A stretch of 64,000 nucleotides of DNA, from NCBI RefSeq assembly GCF_000522985.1, contig NZ_CP007128.1:1286220-1350219 (forward strand), read 5' to 3'. The number at the start of each line of letters is the position of its first letter. The stretch's first letter is position 1. The notes beneath the pieces are model-generated. The model searched no databases. It worked only from the letters and a program-made list of their open reading frames with translations, and was not told the DNA's origin. The position numbers were made by a program, and so were the translations under genes. Positions 9,115-62,476 of the stretch are shown piece by piece. Source of the DNA: Gemmatirosa kalamazoonensis (lineage in GTDB: Bacteria > Gemmatimonadota > Gemmatimonadetes > Gemmatimonadales > Gemmatimonadaceae).

Positions 9115-9131
9115 GGAGGAAGGAAAGGGGT

Positions 9132-9573
9132 GCGATCACCGGCCTGTAAGCCGGGTCCTGTCGGCCCCCGACGCGGCGAGCCGCGACGGAGACCGGACGG
9201 TCATTTCTCTCGGGATCCGGTCGCCCGGACCCTCCAGCAGCCTACCCGCGGCTGTGCCGATGGCGCTCCCGGCTTTCACCGGAATGACACACCGGCTGAC
9301 GAGACGGGCCGTCTCTCGCCGCCTATTTGGCCTTGCTCCGGCTGGGGTTTACCCTGCCACGCCCGTTACCGGGCGCGCGGTGGGCTCTTAACCCGCCTTT
9401 TCAACCTTGCCTGATCCCCTCGGTCTTCTGAGGGGCCATCGGCGGTGTGTTTTCTGTGGCACTGTCCGTCGCACCCCCGAAGAGGTGCGCCCAGGCGTTA
9501 CCTGGCAGCCTGCCCTGTGGAGCCCGGACTTTCCTCGAGCGTCGCCGCTCGCGACCGTCCGGCCGATGACCGC
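9132..9573 (-). ncRNA. rnpB: RNase P RNA, bacterial type A
   Basis: The catalytic RNA of ribonuclease P, which matures tRNA 5' ends. On the minus strand the 5' region carries the universal GGAAAGTCCGGGCTCC segment, the L15 tRNA-CCA-binding loop GGGTAAACCCC, and the 3' end reads GACAGGACCCGGCTTACAGG. The terminal P1 helix can be drawn: the first 11 bases (GCGGTCATCGG) pair completely, with two G-U pairs, with the last 11 (CCGGTGATCGC), which fixes the ends and gives about 442 nt. A weak -10 (TAGATT) lies eight bases upstream of the 5' end. Open reading frames across this stretch are not real genes. Confidence 0.96.
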
Positions 9574-47277: not shown

Positions 47278-47604
47278 GAGACGGGCGTCTCGCGCGGAGG
47301 CGCGGAGAACGCGGAGAACTGCCCTGGCTGCGTGAGTGAGCCGCAGCGGACGCAGAGGGCCGCAGCGCACACCGATGGGGCGAGGTGGCAGGCGAGTACT
47401 CCGGGGATCCAAGTGCGATTGCAAAGATCTCGAGATCCTCTTCATCGCCGTCGGATCCGCAGTCGTACTCGCCCAGCACCCCGAACCTGTGGTTCGATCG
47501 AAGAGGACGGTCCTCTGCGGCCCTCTGCGTCCGCCGCGGTTCGATTCCGGTACGTCACACGCGGCATTGCCGAGTGCAGCGGTGCTCGTAGGTTGGGATC
47601 ACTC
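47278..47604. repeat. Nested palindromic repeat element 1 in a 327-base intergenic region
   Basis: No gene is seen here. A purine-rich GCGGAG unit run (47290-47318) is followed by outer arms at 47341-47365 and 47515-47539, complementary at 24 of 25 positions (CGGACGCAGAGGGCCGCAG core). Inside are further arms (GGCGAGTAC 47391-47399 with GTACTCGCC 47465-47473; GGATCC pairs) around a 12-base perfect centre GATCTCGAGATC (47426-47437). The rest of the gap to the next start shows nothing. Confidence 0.85.
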
Positions 47605-49079
47605 ATGCCACGGACAGTCCTCTCCTTCACGCGCCGGGCGCGCTTCTCGGTGGGCGCGATCGCGTTCACGATCGCGCACGTCGTGCGCGCGCAGACGGTC
47701 GCCGTGACGGGCACGGTGTACGACAGCGTGAGCGGCGCGCCGCTCGCCGGGGCGCTCGTGCAGCTCGCCGCCGAGCGCGATCCGACGCGCGTGCTCAGCG
47801 CGGAAGCGGACTCGCTCGGACGCTACCGCATCACGGGCGTGAGCCCGGGACGGTATCTCGCGGGGTTCGTGCATCCCGCGCTCGACCTGCTCGGCCTCGA
47901 CCCGTCGATGCACGTCGTGGACATCCCGGCGGACACGGCGCGGCGGCTCGACCTCGCGATTCCCGGCGGCACGCGGCTGCGCGCGGCGATCTGCGGGAGC
48001 ACGGCGCGCGCCGACGACAGCACGGGCGCCATCGTGGGCCAGGTGCGCGACGCGGAGACCGACGCGCCGCTCGACTCGGCGCGCGTCGTCGTGACGTGGC
48101 AGGAGCTCGCGCTCGGCGACGGCGCGCGCGTGCATCTCGAGCGGCGTCGCATCCCCGCCGCCGTGCGGCCCGGCGGCTACTACGCGATCTGCGGGGTGCC
48201 GGCGGACGACCCGATCGTCGGCGGCGCGGAGGCGCCGGGGCGACGCGCAGGGCTGGTGGAGCTGCGCGTACCGGCGGGGCGCGTGCTGCGTCGCGATTTC
48301 CGGCTCGCCGATTCCGCCGCCGCGACGGTCGCCGCGGCGCCTAACGATTCGGCGCCGGATCCGGGCGCCGAGCGGCTGCGCGGGCACGCGACGCTGCGCG
48401 GCGTCGTGCGGCGCCCCGATGGCCGTCCGGCGTCGGGCGCGCGGGTGCTGCTGCTCGGCACCGACCGGCGCGCCGATGCGGGCGACGACGGCCGCTTCGT
48501 GCTCGAAGGGCTGCCGTCGGGGACATTCTCGGTCGAGGCGCGCGCGTTAGGCTTCGACGCGCGGCGCGTGCCGGTGGAGCTGTCGAGCCGACGCGCGAGC
48601 GACGCGGAGATCGTGCTCGGCAGCCGCGTCACGACGCTCGAGACGGTGCGCGTGATGGGCGCGCCCACGCGCTCGTCGCGCGCGCGCGCCTGGCGTTCTT
48701 CGAGCGACAGCGGCGGAGCGCCGCGGGGCACTTCCTGTCCGCGGACGACATGGCGAAGTCGGCCCCGGTGGACGCGACCGACGCGCTGCGTCGCATGCCG
48801 GGTGTGGAGATCCTGCCGCGCCGTTATGGCGCGATCAACGCCATGAGCGGCTCGAAGCGGCTGTTCATCCACGGCGGCATGGGCGGCACGCTGTGCAAGC
48901 CGGACGTCTACATCGACGGGATGCTCGTCATGGACGCCGCCGAGGACCTCGACGCGCTCGTACGCCCGGAGGAGGTGCTCGGCTTCGAGCTGTATCGCAA
49001 CGGCACCGGCGTGCCGGCGGAGTTCACGACGACCCGCGCGAGAGACTGCGGCGTGCTGCTCGTGTGGACGAAGCGCTGA
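47605..49079 (+). pseudogene. Carboxypeptidase-regulatory/TonB-plug exported protein, frameshifted
   Basis: The first part (from 47605) has a signal peptide and two regulatory-like beta domains (AVTGTVYDSVSGAPLAGALV, and ATLRGVVRRPDGRPASGARV with VLLLGTDRRADAGDDG). The frame then breaks in an alternating CG tract near 48680; the continuation in the next frame encodes a TonB-plug-like segment (DATDALRRMPGVEILPRRYG, KPDVYIDGMLVMDAAEDLDA) to the stop at 49079. One added base would give about 490 residues. Such plug-only proteins without a barrel are frequent in Gemmatimonadota. The break may be real, or a sequencing error in a slippage-prone tract. Confidence 0.75.
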
Positions 49080-49786
49080 CGCCCGCGGCACGCCGCGTCC
49101 TCCTGATCCACGGCGCGCTCGGCGCCGCCGAGCAGCTCGCGCCGCTGGCGGAGCGGTTGGAGGCGCGAGGCGCGCGCGTATCGGTCGTGGAGCTCGAAGG
49201 CCACGGGCGCACCGCACCGCGCGACCGGTCATTCGCGATGGCGCACTTCGCGGAGAACGTGATCGACGCGCTCGACGCGCTGGGCACGGGGCCGGGGACG
49301 CTGTTCGGCTACAGCATGGGCGGCTACGTGGCGCTGCTCGTCGCCGCGGCATACCCCGACCGCGTGGCGCGCGTCGTGACGTTAGGCACGAAGTTCCGCT
49401 GGGACGCGGAGACCGCCGCCCGTGAGGCCCGGCGTCTCGACCCCGCGACGATCCGCGCGAAGGTGCCGCGCTTCGCCGGCGCGCTCGCGGCACGACACGC
49501 CGGCGCCGGCGGATGGGAAGCGGTGCTCGCGCGCACCGCGACGCTGCTGACCGCGCTCGGCGACGACGCGCCGCTCACCGACGGCGTGTTGGGCGGGCTG
49601 CGCTGCCCGGTGCGCGTGATGGTGGGCGACCGCGACGCGACGGTGACCGTGGAGGAGACGGCGGGCGCGTGGCGCGCGCTGGTGCACGGCGAGCTCGCGG
49701 TGCTGCCTGCCACGCCGCATCCGATCGAGCAGGTGGACACGGCCCTGCTCGCGGAGCTGGTGCTCGGGGGGCTTGTCGGTATCTAA
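49064..49786 (+). CDS. Alpha/beta hydrolase
   Basis: A 240-residue cytoplasmic alpha/beta hydrolase: VLLIHGALGAAEQLAPLAER (oxyanion region), VVELEGHGRT, nucleophile elbow LFGYSMGGYVALLVAA, the acid in VMVGDRDATV and the His in LPATPHPIEQV. The substrate is unknown. It starts with GTG overlapping the plug gene by 16 bases and ends where a repeat element begins. Confidence 0.85.
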   Translation: MDEALTPAARRVLLIHGALGAAEQLAPLAERLEARGARVSVVELEGHGRTAPRDRSFAMAHFAENVIDALDALGTGPGTLFGYSMGGYVALLVAAAYPDRVARVVTLGTKFRWDAETAAREARRLDPATIRAKVPRFAGALAARHAGAGGWEAVLARTATLLTALGDDAPLTDGVLGGLRCPVRVMVGDRDATVTVEETAGAWRALVHGELAVLPATPHPIEQVDTALLAELVLGGLVGI

Positions 49787-50097
49787 CCGCAGAGGACGCA
49801 GAGGGCCGCGGAGAACATTGATAGGGCGAGGGGATAGACGAGTGCCCTGGGGATCCAAGTGCGATTGAAAAGATCTCGAGATCCTCCTCATCGCCGTTGG
49901 ATCCCCAGAGTACTCGCCTGTCACCTCGAACCTGTCGAAGAGAACGTCAACTGCGATTGACCACAGAAGACACGGAGGACACGGAGGAGAACCATTTCAC
50001 TTGTAGGTTTCCTCCGTGTCCTCCGTGTCCTCTGTGGTTCAAATCAAGAAGGGCAGGAAGAGGCAGTCCTCTGCGGCCCTCCGCGTCCTCTGCGGTT
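49785..50097. repeat. Nested palindromic repeat element 2 with a second hairpin inside
   Basis: Fills the 340-base gap; no gene seen. Outer arms (49785-49809 and 50073-50097) are complementary at 24 of 25 positions. Inside, CTGGGGATCCAA (49847-49858) pairs with TTGGATCCCCAG (49897-49908) around the same GATCTCGAGATC centre (49872-49883). Next, a separate hairpin has 29-base arms (49960-49988 and 50010-50038, 28 matches) of a different unit, GACACGGAG. So one element lies within another. Confidence 0.87.
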
Positions 50098-50137
50098 CAA
50101 AGGTGTTCAAAGGCGTTCAAAGGCGTTCAAAGGCGTT
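50096..50137 (+). repeat. Tandem 10-base repeat (GTTCAAAGGC)
   Basis: Four head-to-tail copies of GTTCAAAGGC (the first with T at the last position) adjoin the right arm of the preceding element and run into the last codons of the YheT-like gene on the minus strand. Confidence 0.85.
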
Positions 50138-51110
50138 CTCCGAGAAACTCGAACGTGCGCCGCTCCGCGTAGTACTCGACGCGCCACGGCGCGCGGCCGC
50201 CGACGAAACCGACGTGGCCACCGTGCGCGGTGAACTCGACGTACAGCGCGGGGTTGTCGGCGGCGGCGGCGCGCACCTCGTCGAGCACCGCGGCGGGGAG
50301 GAACGGATCGTCGGCGGCGCTCAGGAGCAGCGTCGGCACGTGCACACCGGCGAGGAAGCCGAGCGCGCTCGATCGCGCGTAGTAGTCGGCGGCGTCGCGG
50401 AAGCCGTGCACCGGCGCGGTGACGACGTCGTCGAAGTCCCAGATGGAGCGCGCGCGTCGGAGCGTCGCGTCGTCGGCGAGGTCCGGGAAGCGCTCGCGCT
50501 TCGCGACCACCTTGCCGCGCAGCGAGCGGAGGAAGTTGCGCTCGTAGACGCGCGCGAACCCGCGGCCGATGTGCCGGGCGCCGCGCGCGAGGTCGTACGG
50601 CACCGACACCGCGATCGCCGCGAACACCGCGCCGGGCACCTCGGGCCCGCGCTCGCCGAGGTACTTCAGTAGCACGTTGCCGCCGAGGGACACGCCGCAG
50701 ATGCCTAACGGCCGCGCCGGCGTCTCGCGTGCGAGCCGGTCGACGACGAACGCGACGTCCGACGTCTCGCCGGAGTGGTAGAAGCGGCGCGTGCGGTTCA
50801 TCTCGGGCCCGCACGTACGATGGAGCAGGAGGTCCATCGCCCACCCGCGGCGCCGCGCCTCGCCGAAGAGGCCCTGCGCGTAGTGCGAGCGCTCGCCTCC
50901 CTCGAGGCCGTGCAGCAACAGCAGGCGCGGGCGGTCGGGCGCGGCGGCGTCGAGGCGCACGAGGTCCACGAAGTCGCCGTCGGGCGTGTCCCACCGCTCG
51001 AGACGCGTCGGCACCGGGCGCGCACGGCGGACGAACTTCCCCCACATCGTCTGCACGTGGGGGTTGCGGGCCCACCACGGGGCGCGGAACGGGTGCGGGG
51101 CGTGCGCCAT
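50127..51110 (-). CDS. YheT-family (UPF0017) alpha/beta hydrolase
   Basis: A 327-residue cytoplasmic hydrolase: PWWARNPHVQTMWGKF is the conserved YheT N-terminus, LLLLHGLEGGERSHYAQGL the oxyanion region, MDLLLHRTCGPEMNRTRRFY, nucleophile elbow GVSLGGNVLLKYLGE, acid in LLSAADDPFLP and His in FTAHGGHVGFV. Members have been linked to carboxylesterase activity, with poorly defined roles. ATG 51110 is used: a TATACT shared with the divergent gene lies six bases upstream. The C-terminus is encoded within a tandem repeat. Confidence 0.88.
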   Translation of the reverse strand: MAHAPHPFRAPWWARNPHVQTMWGKFVRRARPVPTRLERWDTPDGDFVDLVRLDAAAPDRPRLLLLHGLEGGERSHYAQGLFGEARRRGWAMDLLLHRTCGPEMNRTRRFYHSGETSDVAFVVDRLARETPARPLGICGVSLGGNVLLKYLGERGPEVPGAVFAAIAVSVPYDLARGARHIGRGFARVYERNFLRSLRGKVVAKRERFPDLADDATLRRARSIWDFDDVVTAPVHGFRDAADYYARSSALGFLAGVHVPTLLLSAADDPFLPAAVLDEVRAAAADNPALYVEFTAHGGHVGFVGGRAPWRVEYYAERRTFEFLGERL

Positions 51111-51116
51111 GCCCAC

Positions 51117-51124
51117 AGTATACT
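51117..51124. promoter_or_regulatory. Symmetric -10 box for two divergent leaderless genes
   Basis: AGTATACT is a perfect palindrome that reads TATACT on both strands. It is five bases from the ATG at 51130 and six bases from the ATG at 51110, so transcription in each direction would start at or next to the start codon. Confidence 0.7.
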
Positions 51125-51129
51125 GCGCC

Positions 51130-51471
51130 ATGCCCTCGCCCTCGCTCGGCTCATACCTGCTGATACCGCTCGTAGTGACGCTGGCCGAGACGCTCGTCGT
51201 GCTCGGCGTGCTGCACGGCGCGGTGGGACGCGCGATGCGCGCGCGCGGCGACGCGACCTGGCGGCTGCGCGATACGGCGCTCGTGAGCCCGCTGCTGCTC
51301 GTCGGGCTCTTTCTCTGCTTCGCGTCGCTGAACCACGGGATGCTGCGCTACGCGCTCGACGTGGAGCGCGGGCACGGCGGGGGGACGCATCTCGCCGGCG
51401 CCGTCGTCGTCGCGGCGGTGGGGCTGGTGGCGGCGTGGTTCGGCGCGCGGGCGGTGGGCAAGCTGTACTGA
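51130..51471 (+). CDS. Small integral membrane protein
   Basis: A 113-residue protein with three hydrophobic segments (GSYLLIPLVVTLAETLVVLG, LLLVGLFLCFASL, LAGAVVVAAVGLVAAWFGA). Not recognised. It is divergent from the YheT-like gene with only 19 bases between the two ATG codons. Confidence 0.65.
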   Translation: MPSPSLGSYLLIPLVVTLAETLVVLGVLHGAVGRAMRARGDATWRLRDTALVSPLLLVGLFLCFASLNHGMLRYALDVERGHGGGTHLAGAVVVAAVGLVAAWFGARAVGKLY

Positions 51472-53090: not shown

Positions 53091-53097
53091 ACGGCCT

Positions 53098-53291
53098 CTC
53101 ACGGGAGGCGCGGAGAACGCGGAGTGGCGCCTCCGCTGTGTGAATGAACCGCAGAGGACGCAGAGGGCCGCAGAGAACACCAACAGCAAATACCTGGGGA
53201 TGAAAGGATCCCAGGATCCATCAGGATCCTTTCATCCCCAGATCTTTTGCTGTTCGAAGAGGCAGTCCTCTGTGGCCCTCTGCGGTTCGAT
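53098..53291. repeat. Nested palindromic repeat element 3
   Basis: Together with the bases to 53362 this fills a 272-base gap in which no gene is seen. A GCGGAG unit hairpin (53104-53133) is followed by outer arms (AACCGCAGAGG at 53147 onward; CCTCTGCGGTT up to 53287), the right arm one 9-base unit shorter. Inside, AACAGCAAA (53182-53190) pairs with TTTGCTGTT (53246-53254), then an 18-base perfect stem CTGGGGATGAAAGGATCC (53194-53211) pairs with 53224-53241. Confidence 0.87.
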
Positions 53292-61051: not shown

Positions 61052-61062
61052 CCTTCCCGTCT

Positions 61063-61137
61063 CACGCGGAGGCGCGGAGCGCGCGGAGAACTGCACGATG
61101 TTCCGGCGGGTCTCCGCGTCCTCCGCGTCTCCGCGTG
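61063..61137. repeat. GCGGAG-unit inverted repeat
   Basis: Between the susD-like and lyase genes, an arm of units (CACGCGGAGGCGCGGAG, from 61063) faces TCTCCGCGTCCTCCGCG and TCTCCGCGTG (to 61137). It may attenuate transcription after susCD. The same unit begins elements 1 and 3. Confidence 0.78.
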
Positions 61138-61151
61138 CGACTCCACACAGC

Positions 61152-62399: not shown

Positions 62400-62476
62400 C
62401 CTCTGCGTCCTCTGCGTCCTCTGCGGTCGATGCCGTTCACGAGCATGAACCGCAGAGGACGCAGAGGACGCAGAGG
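62400..62476. repeat. Perfect 28-base inverted repeat (CCTCTGCGT units)
   Basis: Arms at 62400-62427 and 62449-62476 are exact reverse complements, each three tandem copies of a 9-base unit (CCTCTGCGT), with a 21-base loop. It is 24 bases before the next start and could stall ribosomes or polymerase. Confidence 0.9.

Follow-up and report, generated by a model that had tools for sequence, protein, structure and literature searches.

The element at 49785-50138 of the window, the window being the whole 64,000-nucleotide stretch of Gemmatirosa kalamazoonensis DNA analysed here, is probably (we put this at roughly 0.6) a composite of miniature, non-autonomous palindromes that are relatives of elements carrying a GxxExxY gene. 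In full length, such relatives would consist of a single GxxExxY gene between inverted arms made of tandem degenerate 9-mers. The architecture, the copy number, the constant order of nesting, the absence of target duplication and a cross-phylum association of the arms with GxxExxY are direct observations. Palindromes of such 9-mers are common between genes and so far without explanation, and the GxxExxY family is widespread but has no known role. The putative nuclease encoded by this family and the repeats could each be half of a single, overlooked mobile system. Linking both gives a pair that can be tested at the bench, namely a very small nuclease and its own short DNA target.

Nested palindromes in the window and in the genome

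The outer arms, here called type B, lie at 49785-49816 (plus strand, AACCGCAGAGGACGCAGAGGGCCGCGGAGAAC) and 50066-50097 (minus strand) and pair with each other at 29 of 32 positions, the outermost 25 pairing at 24 of 25 across the insert as the sequence-only reading had stated. They enclose palindrome D (49827-49928, of the GGGGATCC... type, 39/51 paired), which holds four RGATCY sites and recurs in aligned composites. Between D and the outer right arm lies the separate hairpin already noticed at 49960-50038 (hairpin A), whose 29-base arms of CACRGAGGA units (49960-49988 and 50010-50038) are paired at 28 of 29 positions around a 21-base tip and which has many copies in the genome. The fourfold tandem array said to follow directly is likewise present, as 4.4 copies of GTTCAAAGGC at 50095-50138, where the right B arm ends on its outer side; it starts inside the last three bases of that arm and is probably a product of local slippage. 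The best palindrome score in the 1-kb region was 26 (the highest among 200 first-order shuffles was 17), and the 313-nt element folded as single-stranded DNA reached z = -16.35, with none of 100 shuffles equally stable.

The 313-nt element fills the gap between two convergent alpha/beta hydrolase genes (48893-49786, plus strand, and 50127-51131, minus strand), and the stop codons of both come from it: the TAA of the upstream gene shares bases with the start of the left B arm, and the stop codon of its convergent neighbour is situated within the GTTCAAAGGC array. The right-hand gene of a related genome (G015) ends in a different C-terminus, where no palindrome is present, and the left neighbour is arranged differently there.

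Four further features of this kind were found in the window. A composite of type C(B(D)), in which a remnant of A is also present, occupies 47288-47541, its right C arm being unrecognised, and a second composite at 53097-53287 consists of a C left arm followed by B around palindrome E (53193-53241). A C-type palindrome lies at 61060-61138 (ends approximate), and two B-type arms at 62401-62475 have the reverse arm first, opposite to a normal palindrome. The sole Rfam match in the window is a bacterial class A RNase P RNA (9131-9570, minus strand). Each copy of palindromes D and E (49827-49928, 47391-47473 and 53193-53241) carries four RGATCY sites, so that together they hold 12 of the window's 81. 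RGATCY is reported to be methylated in Gemmatirosa kalamazoonensis (PMC3974934), and palindromes D and E might sense methylation or depend on it.

Across the source genome (7,479,215 bases, four contigs), the arm pattern matched 249 times in forward and 231 times in reverse orientation with at most one mismatch, while the reversed control gave no match. Anatomy was studied in 1.264 Mb, made up of the window and 60 stretches, each of 20 kb, that were chosen around listed matches and so do not form a random sample; this DNA contained 115 arm clusters, or 120 under stricter arm models. Three arm families recur, namely C (TCACGCGGAG..), B (AACCGCAGAGG..) and A (AACCACAGAGG..), all of them tandem degenerate 9-mers, and D and E occur as further inner palindromes. 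Leaving out clusters with a missing arm, there were 23 nested pairs in which both arms of both members were recognised (B around A in 14, C around B in five, C around A in four). The order C > B > A was kept in 23/23 pairs, and neither another order nor nesting within a type occurred. Nested composites thereby order waves of elements within one genome: C, then B, then A. Gaps between an outer arm and the inner element mostly measure about 12-30 bases per side, with a median left-right difference of 4.5 (20 pairs with gaps below 80), and since they are alike on both sides, the inner element lies near the centre of the outer one.

When the window region was used as a query, B(D+A) turned up at five further sites of this genome (C4:578466, C2:5125582, C2:2154025, C2:2333614 and C4:944081). 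At four of these sites one outer arm is shortened. The composite was therefore copied as a unit. Partial composites also exist, as B(D) without A at C2:1551155 and B(A) without D at C2:2077582. Nesting occurred, and the composite was copied afterwards. The sequence-only reading had proposed that a related element inserted into an older one; the nest of related palindromes bears this out in part, but with B(D+A) at five other places the nesting need not have happened locally. It had also suggested looking for uninterrupted versions of the outer arms, and these were found (ten B-only clusters among 120, and B(D) without A). The objection that the two arms might always occur with this insert falls because uninterrupted versions exist. 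Target-site duplications, which it had also proposed to look for, did not appear: an adjacent repeat of at least 6 bases was seen around 0/24 C-bounded and 0/61 B/A-bounded elements, 85 in all, and the one sign of duplication, a possible exception, is a 7-base repeat (AGAGAAC) that flanks D inside B in the composite alignment.

On contig C2, between about 2.57 and 4.69 Mb, the exact A-type 18-mer GACACGGAGGACACGGAG is absent, with many copies on both sides. A repeat-poor terminus region is mentioned in passages of a published survey (PMC11237797) and may be part of the reason for this gap. The same passages count 471 short repeats, 90 and 150 bp long, on the G. kalamazoonensis chromosome, which are very probably the same repeats as the A, B and C palindromes. 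Those passages on the 90- and 150-bp repeats give neither their sequence or structure nor any nesting or partner gene.

Arms around GxxExxY genes within and across phyla

A scan with four GxxExxY proteins of the source genome yielded a cross-phylum set of 80 loci, of which 71 had 500 bases on both sides and entered the arm test (nine lacked flank). Arms, defined as an inverted repeat with a score of at least 18 spanning the gene, were found around GxxExxY in 36/71 loci and in 2/366 control spans of equal length taken from other parts of these loci (Fisher p ~2e-30, with spans within a locus not independent). The 36 arm-bearing loci fall into ten phylum-level groups, as assigned from record titles. 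Their arm units are tandem degenerate ACAGGATTA, CGCGGATTA, CGCCAAGGA, CGCAAAGGA and CACAGAGGA, the same design as in A, B and C, and the window element shares this design, its inverted arms consisting of tandem degenerate CRCRGAK-like units. Copies of GxxExxY within a single genome can differ in arm type, a comparison in which 12 centre loci share genes with the 80-locus set and were not counted as independent. The link between GxxExxY and arms is visible only with the two-sided arm test and not with a test for compact palindromes of the kind that flank the gene in the source genome, which within the nearest 300 bp in the wide set were present at only 2/79 loci upstream and 2/75 downstream. 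In the arm test itself, arms were absent around GxxExxY at 35/71 loci of the wide set and at 13/25 loci in Gemmatimonadota. Six plasmid records had distant GxxExxY genes and phage records gave no match, so that close empty sites were not available there.

Within Gemmatimonadota, GxxExxY is present in 32/101 genomes, and arms span it in 12/25 loci compared to 0/50 control spans (25 of 30 loci were used, the source genome's own locus L253 and four short loci being left out). The arm pattern occurs in 9/101 of these genomes, 8/9 of which also have GxxExxY (p 4e-4, kinship not corrected). One genome (G177) has a C-type arm pair with a score of 59 around an intact GxxExxY gene (L263), and another (G154), with 36 arm-pattern matches, has an intact gene between B-type hairpins. 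In a third (G130, L276-L282), cut-down GxxExxY genes were observed at at least seven places, mostly inside an element with GTAGTGGGTCAGTTT ends, and direct repeats of 8-9 bases were seen by eye near the ends of three copies of this element. This looks like a GxxExxY element that was captured by another element.

The source genome itself has nine GxxExxY matches at seven loci. Membership in the family is indicated by TIGR04256 scores of 121 and 104 bits (cut-off 35) and PF13366 scores of 111 to 131 bits (cut-off 22), with the conserved D, ExK pattern present. Palindromes flank the gene on both sides at four of the seven loci, each pair of a different repeat type and including one B-type and one C-type; two further loci have a one-sided palindrome, and at the last there is none within 1.5 kb. 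The B-flanked gene is split over two frames, and the C-flanked gene is without the middle of the profile, which, judging from profile positions, should be the catalytic part. As both are broken, the palindrome families concerned may now be immobile in this genome. The four intact genes all lack flanking arms of types A, B and C, and the mover of these families is therefore not seen here; the nested element of the window carries no GxxExxY gene. At about 1,092,500 on contig C3 of the source genome (G000; L071 / L184), an intact GxxExxY gene lies between two palindromes of GGACTGAAGAA units, which are extended by another inverted repeat (ACGTACGTGGAG).

The history of a single site can be followed at a junction in Bacteroides that we read from its sequence as sufC-sufD. 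A search for this junction covered 80 genomes, and of the 79 with a match, 30 were read and classed by eye. It is empty or nearly so in 12/30, holds an arm-bounded insert of element length in 11/30 and holds other palindromes in 5/30, one of which (L226) retains the first GxxExxY codons between shortened arms. In the remaining 2/30 (L223 and L225), CGCGGAT-type arms surround a different palindrome of the GTCATCCTGAGCGAAG type, and nesting thus occurs in another phylum than that of the window. The junction is empty, full, miniature or nested among Bacteroides relatives.

These states bear on whether the nests could have formed with no transposition at all, through palindrome growth by template switching or through repeat recombination, and have been retained between convergent genes because they act as RNA hairpins or terminate transcription in both directions. 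Symmetry, central nesting, composite copies with cut-short arms and the position of the window element between convergent genes would all be compatible with such an origin. It is nevertheless very improbable, as the same arms occur at hundreds of unrelated places, the arm families are distinct and nest in a fixed order, and one junction is empty in some relatives and filled in others.

Direct repeats of at least 5 bases, as would mark target duplications, were found around 0/44 GxxExxY elements (shuffles 2.8%). Direct repeats noticed at some Bacteroides inserts, for example around L227, were considered and set aside, as they follow no rule and the same shuffled test gave 0/44. The inverted ends, small size and high copy number of the palindromes could also belong to MITEs of an ordinary DDE insertion sequence, and D, flanked by AGAGAAC inside B, may itself be one. 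With duplications absent around 85 A/B/C-bounded and 44 GxxExxY elements, however, this origin is very improbable for the system as a whole.

A candidate nuclease and the proposed movement of its elements

An AlphaFold2 model of the GxxExxY protein of L069 (pLDDT 90) finds its best structural match in the Cas4 protein SSO0001 (4ic1, E 3e-4), followed by lambda exonuclease, AdnAB and MGME1, all of these matches being weak. A PDB sequence search with GxxExxY gave no relative (best E 0.96). The conserved residues of the family are D, ExK and QxxxY, the RecB/Cas4 signature. From the modelled fold and these motifs, GxxExxY (TIGR04256/PF13366) is predicted to be a PD-(D/E)XK nuclease.

Similarity of proteins and of arms is correlated (rho 0.17, p 0.001, n 44), also when only cross-group pairs are considered (rho 0.14, p 0.0035, n 43, after dropping the unlabelled row L213 and merging rows at least 80% alike, with 43 kept). 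The nine cross-group protein pairs that are at least 60% identical have a mean arm similarity of 0.63 compared to 0.25 for the rest. The correlation is modest, and descent of an element together with its arms would produce it by linkage, without recognition.

This last point is shared by the idea that GxxExxY is a passenger, for instance a gene with a role in addiction or defence, that persists in arm-bounded elements moved by another, unrelated enzyme. That linkage alone yields the correlation, that arms are absent at half of the GxxExxY genes and that the cut-down copies in G130 ride in an element with GTAGTGGGTCAGTTT ends would fit a passenger. Yet GxxExxY is the only gene seen between the arms in the element-length Bacteroides junction inserts and in the other loci read, and the arm design tracks it through about ten phylum-level groups, so that a mere passenger seems unlikely.

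A Y1 tyrosine transposase could be such another enzyme, moving the palindromes in the manner of REPIN/RAYT or TIRtron systems with GxxExxY incidental to it. The logic is similar in passages of PMC3733652, where a small transposase gene lies between inverted repeats and solitary repeats occur elsewhere. This idea is largely refuted, as the source genome has no Y1 (PF01797) match in a search that was positive in 5/14 control genomes, and 11/25 GxxExxY-bearing genomes have no Y1 gene. Inverted repeats were present at 14/28 Y1 loci (28 of 30 loci, two being too short), none with 9-mer units, while 36/54 GxxExxY repeats have such units; this contrast is partly built in because the unit expression was written after seeing the GxxExxY arms, which leaves the absence of Y1 unaffected.

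If the palindromes are instead miniature relatives of GxxExxY elements, the RecB/Cas4-like nuclease would recognise the hairpin or its single-stranded form and move the element, and gene-less palindromes such as those of the window would be moved in trans. New copies would enter intergenic DNA without duplication, often beside stop codons, and would repeatedly settle at the tip of an existing palindrome, giving rise to Russian-doll composites that are then copied whole. A point against this scheme is that insertion without duplication is unlike known DDE elements. Were the nuclease to move DNA, this would to our knowledge be a transposition chemistry new for this fold acting alone. Tentatively, and with rather less confidence than in the reading of the window element, GxxExxY and its arms could constitute an undescribed class of transposable element that has spread through ten or more phylum-level groups. 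The part of a DDE or HUH transposase would then be played by a RecB/Cas4-like nuclease some 120-140 residues long; it would work on hairpin ends, and insertion would take place beside stop codons or the tips of older palindromes, without target duplication. In the open-licence literature, no description of a mobile role for GxxExxY, of PDDEXK_3 or of the arm sequences was found; such descriptions may exist elsewhere.

Comparison with known systems

The likeness to REP/REPIN-RAYT and TIRtron-TIRYT systems, as far as passages of PMC3733652 describe them, is considerable: the repeats are palindromic, intergenic and of high copy number, several families occur per genome, and a dedicated small gene lies between or beside repeats while solitary repeats occur elsewhere. 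The systems differ in the enzyme, a PD-(D/E)XK nuclease by prediction here and an HUH tyrosine transposase in RAYT and TIRYT, and in the arms, which here are tandem degenerate 9-mers. MITEs of DDE insertion sequences are likewise short, non-autonomous and of high copy number with inverted ends, whereas the elements described here have no target-site duplication and no DDE partner was seen. Insertion sequences that target REP palindromes, described in PMC1525189, provide a case of a mobile element inserting into an existing palindrome. In contrast to that case, the inserted unit is here itself a palindrome of related design, in up to three layers.
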